A stretch of 64,000 bases of DNA from Marinimicrobium hydrolyticum (lineage in GTDB: Bacteria > Pseudomonadota > Gammaproteobacteria > Pseudomonadales > Cellvibrionaceae), in the NCBI RefSeq assembly GCF_030848505.1, contig NZ_JAVDDU010000003.1:124001-188000 (forward strand), in the 5' to 3' direction. Under the pieces are notes generated by a model. That model was given only the letters and a program-made list of their open reading frames with translations, had not been told where the DNA came from and did no database searches. Made by a program: the position numbers and the translations under genes. Shown one piece after another: positions 1 to 9,595 of this stretch. How positions within the stretch are numbered: the stretch's first letter is position 1; each line of letters opens with the position of its first letter.

Positions 1-1141
1 TACCTTGGGCCAAAGTCGCAGCCATTTGGCGCCGGTAACTGACCGTGGCCAGCTTGGCGGCTTCACTGGGGTTAGAGATAAACCCGGTCTCCACCAGAAT
101 TGAAGGGACGTCCGGCGACATCAACACCGCAAAGCCGGCCTGCTCCACCGTGGGTTTGTGCAAGCGGGCAATGCCGCCCATGCTGTTCAGCACTTTGCTG
201 CCCACTTCCAAGCTGGTGCTGAGCGTGGCCGTCATGGACAAATCCACCAGCACGCCCGCCAACAACTCATCTTTATCATCCAGGCTCACACTGCCCACGC
301 CGCCAATCAGGTCGGCCTCGTTCTCTCTCTGCGCCAAGAAGCGCGCCGATTCACTGGTGGCGCCACGGCGGGAGAGCGCGAACACCGAGGCGCCATTGGC
401 GGAAGGGTGAGTAAAGGCATCGGCGTGTACGGAAATCATCAGGTCCGCCTGCATCCGCCGGGCAATATTGCGTCGGTCGCGCAAGGATACGTAATAATCT
501 CCGGTGCGAATCAGTTGAGCCTTGTAGCCGGGAATGGCGTTCAACCGCTCCACCAGCCGCTCGCTGATGTCCATGACCACATTTTTTTCAAACAAGCCGC
601 CGGGGCCTATGGCGCCGGGGTCTTCACCACCATGGCCAGCGTCCACGGCAATAATGATGTCTCTGCGTCCGTCATTCGTGTTTTGAGTCGGGCGCGGCGC
701 ACGCCTTTGCGCGGTGGTGCTCGGCTCTCGGTCGTGCAGGTCAATCACTAAACGATCACCCACGCCCGCCTGTTTCTTGAGAAAGAAGCTGCGCGGCTGC
801 ACCTGTTCACGCAGGTCCAACACTACCCGCAGGGTGTTGTCTTCCCGGTGGGCGCTGCGAATGTTGCGAATGGGGGTATCGTCTAGGGAAAGCTCGGAGA
901 AGGTGGTTTTCAGGCGGGCGGCGCTGATATCCACCACCAGCCGGTCCGGGTTTGATAGCCGGAACACTTTGTGCTCAACGGGACCGCTGAGATCCAACAC
1001 CAGGCGGGTGTGGTCGGGGGCGCGCCACAGGCGCACGTTATCGACGTCCGCAGCGTGGATGACGGGCGCGAACATAACTGCAGCCAGCAGCACTAGGCTG
1101 AGCCAGGCTTTCCATGGACATTGGGCTCTAACGCAAGTCAC
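1..1141 (-). CDS. amiB: N-acetylmuramoyl-L-alanine amidase, AmiB type (3' end outside the window)
   Basis: Periplasmic zinc amidase that cuts the amide bond between muramic acid and the stem peptide to separate daughter cells. The visible part has a signal peptide with hydrophobic core WLSLVLLAAVMFA, an N-terminal AMIN-like beta domain starting DVDNVRLWRAPDHTR, then an Amidase_3 domain. Zinc and catalytic residues are recognisable in DAGHGGEDPGA, GLFEKNV, SVHADAF and LVETGFISNP. I start it at GTG 1141 because a stop lies just upstream in frame, and the ATG at 1075 would cut the signal peptide in half. It follows tsaE on the same strand, the E. coli order nnr-tsaE-amiB(-mutL), so mutL may lie just outside. 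The C-terminus is not visible, so a LysM domain cannot be judged. Confidence 0.93.
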   Translation of the reverse strand, partial: MTCVRAQCPWKAWLSLVLLAAVMFAPVIHAADVDNVRLWRAPDHTRLVLDLSGPVEHKVFRLSNPDRLVVDISAARLKTTFSELSLDDTPIRNIRSAHREDNTLRVVLDLREQVQPRSFFLKKQAGVGDRLVIDLHDREPSTTAQRRAPRPTQNTNDGRRDIIIAVDAGHGGEDPGAIGPGGLFEKNVVMDISERLVERLNAIPGYKAQLIRTGDYYVSLRDRRNIARRMQADLMISVHADAFTHPSANGASVFALSRRGATSESARFLAQRENEADLIGGVGSVSLDDKDELLAGVLVDLSMTATLSTSLEVGSKVLNSMGGIARLHKPTVEQAGFAVLMSPDVPSILVETGFISNPSEAAKLATVSYRRQMAATLAQG

Positions 1142-6169: not shown

Positions 6170-6242
6170 GCCTAACGCCGCGCTTTGCGGCTGGTTTGGA
6201 GCGCAGCGGAAAAACCAGTCCGACAACAGCGCTTTGTTAGGC
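6170..6242 (-). repeat. attC recombination site 1
   Basis: Read on the minus strand it starts with R'' GCCTAAC (6242-6236) and ends with R' GTTAGGC (6176-6170), both matching the consensus ends RYYYAAC and GTTRRRY. Between them lie complementary inner arms, such as GACTGGTTT pairing with AAACCAG, around a short GCGCTCC-type centre. It is 73 bp. It supplies the TAA stop of the protease cassette and is nearly identical to site 2. Confidence 0.88.
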
Positions 6243-7034
6243 GATTCTATTATGATATTCATGAATCCACTGTTTAATTGTTGATGGCGTAGCCAATTCG
6301 CCGGAAACGTGAACTGACTTATCACCGAAGATTTCGGAGCCTGCCGCGCTCTCATAAATTATCCCCAAAATCCCATATTCCTCCTCAGTACTCCAAAATA
6401 TCGGGCCACCACTAGCACCGCTATAGTCGAGAGTATCCGGCACTTCATCTAATTGACTAAACAATGAGAAACGCTGGGTAGGTTGACCATTTGATAATTC
6501 AGCAACTATTTGAACGTGAGGCATAGAGACACGATAACCACTACCGTTATCTTCATCCTTCCTATATTTCATTAATGACGGAAAACCGATAGCTATCGCA
6601 TATTTTAACTGCTCCAGCTGCACCGCGGGCGAGTCTAAATCAATCGCTTCTTTTTCTATCTTTTCAAGTAACGCTGGATTCAGCTCTCTAATAGCGATAT
6701 CCGGTTGTGGTTGACCGAAATCAGCTGACGGCCTAAAGAATCTATCTTGCACAACATAAAAGCCGTTGAGCATTGTTCTCATGCTATGACTATATTCCCC
6801 ATGCTCTACTTCCTTTTCACGGTATATTTCAATTATATGCCAACAAGTAATTCCGTATGTTTTATCATTGCACTTTACAAATGTGATTGTTCCATTTGAT
6901 ATAGCTTCAGTCGGCTTTGAGAATTCTAAATGCCCCCTATCACTCTGAGTAAAATTCGGGGTGATAACTAGTGAAGCACAGTGAAGTGCATAATTTTCCT
7001 TAAAAAAATCGCACGCAATAAAATCTTCTTCCAT
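6237..7034 (-). CDS. trypsin-like serine peptidase in a gene cassette
   Basis: A 265-residue protein with the layout of a chymotrypsin-fold peptidase: His in GITCWHIIEI (H66), Asp in PDIAIREL (D112) and Ser in DYSGASGGPIFW (S208, GxSGGP). There is no signal peptide, so it is probably cytoplasmic. I start at ATG 7034, with GAGGAAG just upstream; the earlier ATG at 7061 lies inside attC site 2. The stop TAA is within attC site 1. Trypsin-like domains occur in bacterial antiphage and stress proteins, but a function here is only inference. The substrate is unknown. Confidence 0.8.
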   Translation of the reverse strand: MEEDFIACDFFKENYALHCASLVITPNFTQSDRGHLEFSKPTEAISNGTITFVKCNDKTYGITCWHIIEIYREKEVEHGEYSHSMRTMLNGFYVVQDRFFRPSADFGQPQPDIAIRELNPALLEKIEKEAIDLDSPAVQLEQLKYAIAIGFPSLMKYRKDEDNGSGYRVSMPHVQIVAELSNGQPTQRFSLFSQLDEVPDTLDYSGASGGPIFWSTEEEYGILGIIYESAAGSEIFGDKSVHVSGELATPSTIKQWIHEYHNRIA

Positions 7035-7046
7035 ACTTCCTCGTTC

Positions 7047-7118
7047 GCCTAACGCCCGCATTTGCGGCTGGTTTGGAGCGCAGCGGAAAACCAGTCCGAC
7101 AACATGCGCTTGTTAGCT
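7047..7118 (-). repeat. attC recombination site 2
   Basis: On the minus strand it runs from AGCTAAC (7118-7112) to GTTAGGC (7053-7047), 72 bp. Its inner part (TGTTGTCGGACTGG, CCGCTGCGCTCC, CCAGCCGCAAA) matches site 1 almost base for base. The R'' end departs from consensus at one position (G for Y). High similarity between neighbouring attC sites is typical of chromosomal cassette arrays. Confidence 0.86.
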
Positions 7119-7121
7119 TTA

Positions 7122-8252
7122 TTACTCGAAGATATCTTTTGCACCAAAAACCCTAAAACCGTGTGGATTTAACATTCTTGCAGAACGTGGCCCAATGTGA
7201 ATATCACCAGATATTTCTACTATTAATTTCTGATCATGTGCCAGAATTGCCTCGTGATATTCGCTTGAAGACAATTCAAAAGAAACAGCTCTATCTCTGT
7301 CTTCAACAAATGCCACTATGGTCACAGTGCCGTCTTCTTCACTCTTGGCTCTATCTAGCTTTTTAACAGGTCCAGAAATTGTCGCATTGTCGATCACGTA
7401 ATTTTCTTTTAAGTATTCCGATGCCTTTTCAATTGAAGGCACATCATTCGAGCTGAATGAATAGCTTATAACTGAAGAACTTTCAATCTCTTCTGATGCT
7501 GAAAAGGAAACTCCAATATCGAAACCTCTATTTCTTTTTTCTCCGCTTAGTCCAACCAACGCGTCACACATGTTTGCACTAACGCCATTGCTCACCAATG
7601 CCTCAAATATCTTTGAATCACTTTTGGGACTTTCGGTTAGTGTTTTCAGTGAACTCAAGCCTTTTCCCAAAGTAGTCGTCACATGTCTAGAAAATGACTT
7701 CCTATCGATGAGGTCGTTAATGCTTTGGGTATCTAGCGGCACCACGACATTGACAACATAGCTTCCAATTTCAGTTTGACCGAGCCTTACCTTCGAGAGA
7801 AAGTTGGATGCCTCAGATGGTCTCGAACCAAAAAAATAACGCTTTTTAGATATCGTTGACAACGCTGCAGATGACAAAAGATCTTTTGCTTTTTCAAATA
7901 ATTTAACCCCGTCTTCTAGAGGAATAGTACCATTTTCAACGTCATTATGTACTACGCGGATACTGACTGTATCTGAAAAGTAATTGGCGATATCCTTAAG
8001 TACTTTTGATTCGGTTCTCTTTTCAAAAGCCGAAATACTAACAATTGCATCTGCAACCCTGTCTTTATAATCCCTCAGGTCTACTCTCTCAGGAAGCAGA
8101 ACCTCGTACTCAAACTCTGATTCACTTGGGCGATGCCAAACTGTCGCGAACTCACCTATTTTTGAATCAGATCTCCATCCGGTCTGTAACAGATAGGCTC
8201 TCAATTGCTCGGGATAGATGGATTTCAACGTATCATTATCGAGAAGACTCAT
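7122..8252 (-). CDS. unknown 376-residue protein, second gene of a two-gene cassette
   Basis: I do not recognise this family. The protein is soluble, without a signal peptide or membrane segments, acidic overall, and predicted by eye to alternate beta strands and helices (for example FEYEVLLPERVDLRDYKDRVADAIVSISAFE). Its ATG overlaps the stop of the DUF4365 gene by the four bases ATGA, so the two are translated together. It is followed by attC site 2. Co-translation with a nuclease-like protein in one mobile cassette suggests a joint function, possibly target sensing or control of the nuclease. That is inference only. Confidence 0.8.
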   Translation of the reverse strand: MSLLDNDTLKSIYPEQLRAYLLQTGWRSDSKIGEFATVWHRPSESEFEYEVLLPERVDLRDYKDRVADAIVSISAFEKRTESKVLKDIANYFSDTVSIRVVHNDVENGTIPLEDGVKLFEKAKDLLSSAALSTISKKRYFFGSRPSEASNFLSKVRLGQTEIGSYVVNVVVPLDTQSINDLIDRKSFSRHVTTTLGKGLSSLKTLTESPKSDSKIFEALVSNGVSANMCDALVGLSGEKRNRGFDIGVSFSASEEIESSSVISYSFSSNDVPSIEKASEYLKENYVIDNATISGPVKKLDRAKSEEDGTVTIVAFVEDRDRAVSFELSSSEYHEAILAHDQKLIVEISGDIHIGPRSARMLNPHGFRVFGAKDIFE

Positions 8253-8749
8253 TTATATTCTCCTCGACTAGCTAATTTCATTAGCTCCGATAAAGAGTCG
8301 CAATTCAGCTTTTGCGTAATGGGAATCTCTATAGTAACCGATGTCTCATTTTTAGTTTCAGGATATGATCGAATAGATGCCCAGTAACAACTGTGATAAA
8401 GGATCATGCTGTCGTTTTTTGATTCAATCCACTGGTCGATATCCTCTGGAACCACGAGCACTATGAGATACCTGGGACACATAACATTGCCCCCCCGCAA
8501 ATCATCATAGTTTTTCTTTTTTAAAGGAAAGTGGAGCGATCCGTTTTTGATAATAGATTTTTGTGAAGTGCATTTTAATTGCAGATCAACTTGCGGGTTT
8601 CTAACCTTGGCGTTGTATCCTCTGCCTTTCAACGATAAATCTACACTATCGTCATCCACACTCCATCCTGCATTGCTCAACCCTACCTTGGCAGCAATTG
8701 CATTAACATAAGCCACACTGAACTGTTCTTTTCGTTGTTTTATATCCAT
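8249..8749 (-). CDS. DUF4365 domain protein, probable PD-(D/E)xK-like nuclease, first gene of a two-gene cassette
   Basis: The 166 residues match the DUF4365 pattern: REQFSVAYVNAIAAKVGLS-type helix near the start, VDDDSVDLSL, then DLQLKCTS, a FPLKKKNYDDLR stretch and a C-terminal half with RYLIVLVVP. The acidic residues of DDSVD followed by QLK resemble the D...QxK core seen in the PD-(D/E)xK nuclease clan, though family membership is from memory. The gene follows attC site 3 and overlaps the next gene by ATGA. DUF4365 proteins often sit in accessory or defence regions. Confidence 0.8.
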   Translation of the reverse strand: MDIKQRKEQFSVAYVNAIAAKVGLSNAGWSVDDDSVDLSLKGRGYNAKVRNPQVDLQLKCTSQKSIIKNGSLHFPLKKKNYDDLRGGNVMCPRYLIVLVVPEDIDQWIESKNDSMILYHSCYWASIRSYPETKNETSVTIEIPITQKLNCDSLSELMKLASRGEYK

Positions 8750-8772: not shown

Positions 8773-8853
8773 AGCTAACGACCCGCACATGGCCGCGAGT
8801 TTACGAGCGTCCCGCCGACGCTTGCGGCGGCGTAATGATGCGGCTTGTTAACC
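8773..8853 (-). repeat. attC recombination site 3
   Basis: On the minus strand it runs from GGTTAAC (8853-8847) to GTTAGCT (8779-8773), 81 bp. The inner arms AAGCCGCA and TGTGCGGG are partly complementary and a GC-rich hairpin fills the middle. Both ends deviate from the strict consensus and the inner sequence differs from sites 1 and 2. It contains the stop codon of the 8848-9243 gene, as expected. Confidence 0.72.
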
Positions 8854-9243
8854 CAGCACGCGCCGAATGATTTCCTTCTGAACACCAGGATGAAACTCTT
8901 CATATAGTGTATTAAACCGGACGTTGTTTTTCCCGTGTTCAAGCGAAATTACGAAAGCATCCGTTGAGATCCACTTAACTCTCCGACCAAATGAAACTAG
9001 CTGGTGACTTTCGAGAGATGTAACCACTGAGTCATCAAGCACCATACCAATCGCTTTGATGGTTAGGGGCGCCCCTGGTTGTGCGGCTTTAATATATACA
9101 ATATCTCCAGGCTTGATGCTCCTCATAATTTGGTGAAGGTCTGGCGCCTCGCCTTCATTCCAGCCCAACCCAACGATACTTGCATCGATGAATTTTTGAC
9201 TTACGTCTTCACCGTAGTAGGCTCCGACTCCGAAAATTGCCAT
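8848..9243 (-). CDS. small cassette protein of unknown function, possibly PUA/EVE-like
   Basis: 131 residues starting MAIFGVGAYYGEDVSQ, with AAGGAG 7 bases before ATG 9243; an in-frame extension to 9339 lacks any sign of coding. The segment SIKPGDIVYIKAAQP followed by LTIKAIGMVLDD resembles the strand pattern of small PUA-superfamily (EVE-like) domains that bind modified bases. That comparison is weak and made by eye. Its stop codon lies in attC site 3, so it is a cassette gene. Confidence 0.7.
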   Translation of the reverse strand: MAIFGVGAYYGEDVSQKFIDASIVGLGWNEGEAPDLHQIMRSIKPGDIVYIKAAQPGAPLTIKAIGMVLDDSVVTSLESHQLVSFGRRVKWISTDAFVISLEHGKNNVRFNTLYEEFHPGVQKEIIRRVLG

Positions 9244-9595
9244 AAGTATCTCCTTGTTGGTTAACAACATTATTAGAAGGAAAAATTCCGTGTTTAAACC
9301 CGGACAATTTCCGTCTTTCACATTTCCGGTGTTCGACAACCTAGCCGGCAGCCCTTATGACACGTAGCTTATGGTCAGCTGTTCTAAAAATGAAAGCGTG
9401 AAACACGGACTTTTTCCTTCTAACGTTCCACGAAACCAAGCGAAATACCACCCATTCACCCAGTGATATCCTTTTATTTCAGTGAATGAGCTGTTTATAG
9501 CATGGCAAAGGCGCAATTTCACGCATCTAAAAGCTGTAAGCTTTCAACAATTATTCGTTGTACTTATCAGAAAATGCATTGTGTGCACCTCTGCA
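9244..9595. other. spacer upstream of the cassette cluster
   Basis: About 350 bases without a convincing gene. It holds the 151-bp inverted-repeat element and otherwise AT-rich DNA. An attI site or promoter of the cassette array would be expected here if this is the proximal end, but I see no integrase and cannot identify attI. Confidence 0.5.
9273..9423. repeat. 151-bp element bounded by 23-bp inverted repeats
   Basis: TTAGAAGGAAAAATTCCGTG (start of the left arm, 9273-9295) is the reverse complement of 9401-9423 with one mismatch in 23. The interior (about 105 bases) is not palindromic and not coding. The size and ends resemble a MITE-like element. I see no clear target-site duplication. 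Confidence 0.7.

Follow-up and report, generated by a model that had tools for sequence, protein, structure and literature searches.

PDC-M02 in an integron cassette of Marinimicrobium hydrolyticum: a DREN-type nuclease and a predicted OB-fold partner as a candidate defence unit

What might be the function of two overlapping genes that lie together in an integron cassette of Marinimicrobium hydrolyticum? The genes are located on the minus strand of a 64,000-nucleotide stretch of DNA that we analyzed, referred to here as the window. A preliminary description took them to encode a nuclease-like protein and a partner with no recognised domain, and regarded them as a promising candidate for an undescribed system. 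However, on the evidence of sequence comparison, the pair is PDC-M02, a phage-defence candidate already catalogued in PADLOC-DB 2.0 (2023). The first protein matches the profile PDC-M02A with E 5.8e-65 (residues 1-164 on profile positions 1-163 of 165), and the second matches PDC-M02B with E 6.4e-133 (residues 5-374 on positions 5-374 of 375). PDC-M02 consists of the same genes, at full length and in the same A-before-B order, and we use the names M02A and M02B below. That the second protein lacks a recognised domain is true for Pfam, and no NCBIfam family was found for it either, but it does have this PADLOC profile.

PDC-M02 is named in no paper of the literature that we searched, nor did we find a report of experimental antiphage activity there. 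The PDC candidates of PADLOC derive from a 'guilt-by-embedding' survey, and most of them are without an experimental test (PMC12988326).

The gene pair and its surroundings

M02A is followed immediately by M02B, and the two reading frames share the ATGA overlap from which the preliminary description had deduced a single co-translated unit (Table 1). This deduction is borne out by the sequence, and we consider it supported that the genes are transferred and translated together.

Table 1. Features of the M02 cassette and parts of the M02B protein. Positions are those of the window, except where residues are given.
Feature	Position	Strand	Basis or remark
M02A, 166-aa DUF4365 protein	8249..8749	minus	open reading frame
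M02B, 376-aa protein	7122..8252	minus	open reading frame
ATGA overlap, M02A stop and M02B start	8249..8252	minus	translational coupling
GAGGAG, Shine-Dalgarno-like, for M02B	8260..8265	minus	7 nt before the ATG, within the end of M02A
attC1, attC of the downstream cassette	6170..6242	minus	hairpin fold and attC scan
attC2, attC of the M02 cassette	7047..7118	minus	hairpin fold and attC scan
attC3, attC of the upstream cassette	about 8773..8852	minus	attC-like layout, weak fold
M02B N-terminal alpha/beta part	residues about 1-94		
M02B middle part	residues about 95-284		LGQTExGS and GVSANxC motifs
M02B C-terminal part	residues about 285-370		SSB-like OB fold (modest match)

Searches with M02B led to 24 plasmids, 2 M. 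abscessus prophages, 11 IMG/VR contigs and 106 loci in GTDB genomes, 80 of which were kept. The relatives are found in Proteobacteria, Actinobacteria, Acidobacteria, Verrucomicrobia, Chloroflexota and Gemmatimonadota, and also in spirochaetes, Clostridia, Bdellovibrionota and Cyanobacteria; the nearest are those of Variovorax, with 45-47% identity. The neighbourhood survey upholds the pairing on which the preliminary description depended, as a DUF4365 gene is directly upstream of M02B in 97 of 101 loci, and the overlap is exactly four nucleotides in 69 of 85 relatives. The distance matrices of the two proteins are strongly correlated (Mantel r = 0.788), while the maximum in 2000 permutations was 0.245, and none was as high. 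The pair is therefore real and old. It is also mobile: it occurs in M. abscessus prophages and in Leptospira phage LE1, and only one of 144 genomes in the window's own family carries it, as is expected for a mobile gene pair.

Two of the loci that deviate from the usual arrangement are noteworthy. An acidobacterial locus (L064) has two copies of M02B, separated by about 3.4 kb and located next to an Mrr-type restriction gene; a DUF4365 gene adjoins just one of them. In the other locus (L092), we considered a 953-aa frame as a fusion of M02B to an effector and rejected it, since the open reading frame merely runs through an unrelated upstream gene. M02A is reduced there to its last ~38 residues upstream of M02B, and a gene for HsdM (a type I methylase) comes directly after.

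We applied PADLOC to the 124 nearest neighbours of the relatives. This revealed restriction genes of type I (3), type III (2), type IV (2) and type IIG, in addition to SoFic, IetA, Ptu, PD-Lambda-3 and PDC-S02. In contrast, the matches among 124 control genes from random stretches were mainly housekeeping-like, e.g., cysteine desulfurase (DndA/SspA) and helicases, and restriction or defence genes were rarer. This comparison is one of family tallies rather than exact protein counts, and its controls come from relatives of the window's genome, not from matched taxa. Subject to these caveats, a defence-type setting is supported.

The preliminary description also placed the pair between attC sites 2 and 3. 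This is well founded for attC2, which was found by the scan, is located 3' of the genes and folds with extrahelical bases, as is required of a cassette's attC. It is a near-copy of attC1; both hairpins have three bulged bases, all on one side, and the folding z-scores for the plus strand are -3.6 for attC1 and -2.7 for attC2. The site attC3 is less certain, because its layout is attC-like but its fold is weak (z -1.0 to -1.5). It lies 23 nt before M02A and, belonging to the upstream cassette, marks where the M02 cassette is bounded on its upstream side. No promoter was found in this 23-nt leader, so the cassette may be silent in its present place.

The nearest integron integrase (G000:C23:558818-559750, minus strand; 393.5 bits against a cut-off of 265 bits) is on the same contig at a distance of 426 kb, and the three cassettes in the window therefore represent a small cluster with no integrase beside it. 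The integrase is full-length and is situated ~0.5 kb from the contig end, so that the main cassette array was probably broken by assembly.

It is established that integron cassettes serve as a store for defence genes (PMC12409362). Integron-borne defence systems tend to be small, and the M02 cassette is likewise. It resembles the defence cassettes of Vibrio chromosomal integrons and of mobile integrons in being a small candidate bounded by attC sites. Unlike these, however, it is part of a short cluster, far from an integrase and in a non-Vibrio gammaproteobacterium. The integron setting is also a property of the window's copy: a simple attC scan detected attC-like sites downstream of 3 of 95 relatives and in 16 of 1000 control stretches, which is no clear excess.

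The protein encoded by the downstream cassette (gene at 6237-7061, minus strand) shows an H...D...GASGGP layout like that of trypsin, and it weakly matches PADLOC's LmuA, the Lamassu effector (E 1.4e-8); possibly, this is a second defence cassette. Since position 7061 falls within attC2, the gene probably starts at an ATG inside the frame, near 7034. For the 132-aa protein of the upstream cassette (8848-9246, minus strand), there was no convincing match in Pfam, PADLOC, PHROG or NCBIfam. Just upstream of the cluster is a 23-nt inverted repeat (9273-9295 and 9401-9423, 96% complementary and 105 nt apart), which might represent either a miniature element or a recombination site that has degenerated.

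A nuclease of the SPARDA DREN type

M02A belongs to DUF4365 (PF14280; E 4.6e-26, 92 bits, above the curated cut-off of 24.3), and this domain takes up the whole protein. The D...QxK core that was pointed out in the preliminary description is conserved without exception, in that D32, D37, Q57 and K59 are invariant (100%) across 79 relatives, while E8 is kept in 77%. The AlphaFold model has a pLDDT of 95. In a profile alignment, E8, D37, Q57 and K59 fall on E45, D74, D90 and K92 of EcoRV (E 0.012), which we take to be that enzyme's active site.

In the fold search, the best PDB matches of M02A are the DREN-APAZ chains of SPARDA (E 8.7e-7), followed by Hjc and EcoRV. The residues D37, Q57 and K59 correspond to D41, Q60 and K62, which are the catalytic residues of SPARDA DREN (PMC12205087). 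The D and the QxK thus form one site, as had been proposed, and M02A is a PD-(D/E)XK nuclease of the SPARDA DREN type with D37, Q57 and K59 as its active site.

SPARDA and PDC-M02 accordingly share a DUF4365 nuclease with the same fold and the same D/Q/K active site. They differ in that SPARDA has an APAZ domain, an Argonaute and a guide, and PDC-M02 has none of these. Moreover, the nuclease of PDC-M02 is a separate chain, and its partner is an unrelated protein with an OB fold. We looked for APAZ and Argonaute and found neither, so PDC-M02 is not a SPARDA system.

The partner protein M02B

The structural model of M02B is confident (pLDDT 91, pTM 0.84), and the protein falls into three parts (Table 1). 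Among 87 relatives, the invariant or nearly invariant residues are W26, P54, D61, D94, the LGQTExGS motif (157-164), G223, N227, C229, H339 and G349. Matches to solved structures are confined to the C-terminal part and are OB folds of SSB, RPA and PolC, with a best E of 4e-3; we assigned them to their residues from the extent of the match and from the pattern of strands. The model presents M02B as a new fold with a C-terminal SSB-like OB fold, the latter on a modest match. The protein has no match to any known sensor. We also considered M02B as a relative of Argonaute or APAZ, but found no match in Pfam or among the PDB fold matches listed. Based on a GW...G.H pattern, the N-terminus was considered as HicA-like or dsRBD-like, but nothing meaningful emerged from an hhalign comparison with a HicA set that was small and poor.

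A natural deletion helps to divide the protein. On cyanobacterial plasmids, M02B is only ~180 aa long, with residues about 95-291 (~195 residues) cleanly missing, and it adjoins an M02A that has all catalytic residues. This short form consists of the N-terminal part and the OB fold only, and we conclude that these are the minimal partner and that the middle motifs are an optional module. The minimal loci (L010, L113, L114 and L115) have varied settings: in one case the pair is flanked by ParA and ParB genes, and in two cases a tyrosine recombinase adjoins it.

A fold search against viral models recovered the full-length M02B homologue of Leptospira phage LE1 (E 1.5e-23). In BFVD, a 101-aa protein of Nodularia phage vB_NspS-kac65v162 (A0A482MK90) matches one M02B domain, with an rmsd of 1.1 over 82 columns. 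It is possible that this protein is a stand-alone mimic or decoy, or just that the domain is shared; tblastn did not recover it.

Among the viral models, Foldseek also matched M02B to a DUF6575 protein (E 6.5e-8, TM 0.36), and a weak DUF6575 match was seen in a staphylococcal prophage. DUF6575 proteins match PD-T4-10_B and PDC-M63B in PADLOC. We treat the resemblance of M02B to DUF6575 as a structural hint: profile comparison with three DUF6575 proteins was not significant (probability 0.2-0.3%) and Pfam gave no DUF6575 match. PD-T4-10 and PDC-M63 are nonetheless like PDC-M02 in having two overlapping genes, the second of which encodes a protein distantly like M02B in structure, with no significant similarity in sequence or profile. 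In PD-T4-10, a validated abortive system of two genes, the toxin is the product of the second gene, and the first is without a predicted function (PMC9519451).

How the pair may act

Our main reading, to which we assign a probability of roughly 0.5, is that PDC-M02 is a two-gene defence unit in which M02B senses a cue of infection and thereupon activates M02A, the DREN-type nuclease. The pair would protect against phages or other DNA that invades the cell. M02A would be a small DNase that is idle or weak by itself, and M02B would be its sensor and scaffold. The N-terminal part and the OB fold of M02B would be the core that works with M02A, and this core would probably bind single-stranded or unusual nucleic acid. 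A further role in sensing or gating is probable for the middle domain, with its invariant LGQTExGS and GVSANxC motifs. Upon infection, a nucleic-acid or replication cue would be recognised by M02B, which would then assemble M02A or unlock it. The nuclease might next cut phage DNA, or else all DNA, leading to abortive infection. Of these elements, the computations show the pairing with its translational coupling and co-evolution, the nuclease fold with its active site, the OB fold, the optional middle module, mobility and the neighbouring defence genes; the antiphage role, the cue, the activation of M02A and the kind of DNA damage are inferred.

The activation step is carried over by analogy from SPARDA, where Argonaute plays this part. 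There, the DREN domain by itself is a monomer with no activity, and it turns into a collateral nuclease once the partner filament makes it tetramerise (PMC12205087). A more specific proposal, which we put forward only tentatively, is that PDC-M02 is a functional relative of SPARDA that dispenses with Argonaute, i.e., a DREN nuclease switched on by a new-fold OB sensor with a removable middle module.

Several points weigh against the main reading. The resemblance to OB folds is modest, and such folds can have proteins and ligands as their binding partners too. M02B matches neither Argonaute, APAZ nor a known sensor, and the leader without a promoter may leave the cassette silent. In addition, two other PADLOC candidates, PDC-M63 and PDC-S04, proved inactive in the one host in which they were assayed (PMC12409345). 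We considered four alternatives.

In the first, the complex of M02A and M02B would restrict DNA directly, in the manner of a type IV or Hjc-like enzyme. It would cut invading DNA that is modified, branched or single-stranded, and spare the host. The resemblance of M02A to Hjc resolvases and EcoRV is consistent with this idea, as is the earlier placement of DUF4365 in the Mrr subfamily of PD-(D/E)XK nucleases (PMC6299218); the OB fold could confer structure specificity, and other restriction genes are among the neighbours. However, the closest fold is that of the collateral DREN and not of a specific restriction enzyme, the pair has no accompanying methylase and no specificity domain was recognised. 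We consider direct restriction unlikely.

The second alternative is a toxin-antitoxin module, with M02A as a constantly active DNase that M02B restrains. The DNase would be released once M02B, or transcription in the host, is disturbed by infection. Modules of this kind typically have tightly overlapping genes that are strictly paired and co-evolve, and several antiphage systems with overlapping genes work in this way, e.g., PD-T4-10 (PMC9519451). On the other hand, the toxin gene would come first, an antitoxin would not be expected to be as large and as highly conserved as M02B, and the related DREN domain is inactive alone (PMC12205087). Broken loci are informative here. Both genes are intact in 85 of 100 loci, and M02A is split beside an intact M02B in four (L012, L039, L085 and L087), some of which might reflect sequencing errors; other partial cases are at contig ends. 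In one further locus (L101), an insertion element interrupts M02B, while the frame of M02A is full and retains all four invariant residues. Although the numbers are small, and a single interrupted M02B is thin evidence on toxicity, neither protein appears to be obviously lethal alone. This leans against a simple toxin-antitoxin module, which we regard as rather improbable, and towards activation of M02A by M02B, as in the main reading.

A third alternative is a role outside defence, in the maintenance of plasmids or other elements or in DNA repair. The short form that ParA and ParB genes flank on one cyanobacterial plasmid would fit such a role, and an OB fold with an Hjc-like nuclease also suits DNA processing. 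However, the other short forms are away from Par genes, the pair is patchily distributed even within the window's own family, and it is sited in prophages and cassettes and near restriction genes. There is, in our estimation, only a small chance that this explanation is correct.

Finally, M02B could be a toxic effector like PD-T4-10B, with M02A as a regulator or processing nuclease, but apart from the Foldseek link to a DUF6575 protein and thereby to a validated toxin, the observations speak against this scarcely credible arrangement: the profile comparison is not significant, M02B persists intact beside broken copies of M02A, the most conserved stretch, in the middle, is missing from the short M02B, and M02A holds a complete nuclease site.

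PDC-M02 is widespread, and our analysis supplies both a nuclease active site to mutate and the domains of the partner, and ties the effector to the collateral nuclease of SPARDA. The natural minimal form (about 165 + 180 aa) is an easy object of study. Should the tentative kinship with SPARDA be true, DREN nucleases would be a general effector that is plugged into unrelated sensors. If the proposed mechanism holds, a two-gene nuclease unit would join the defence genes of integron cassettes, and one effector nuclease would be common to guide-dependent and guide-free bacterial immunity.
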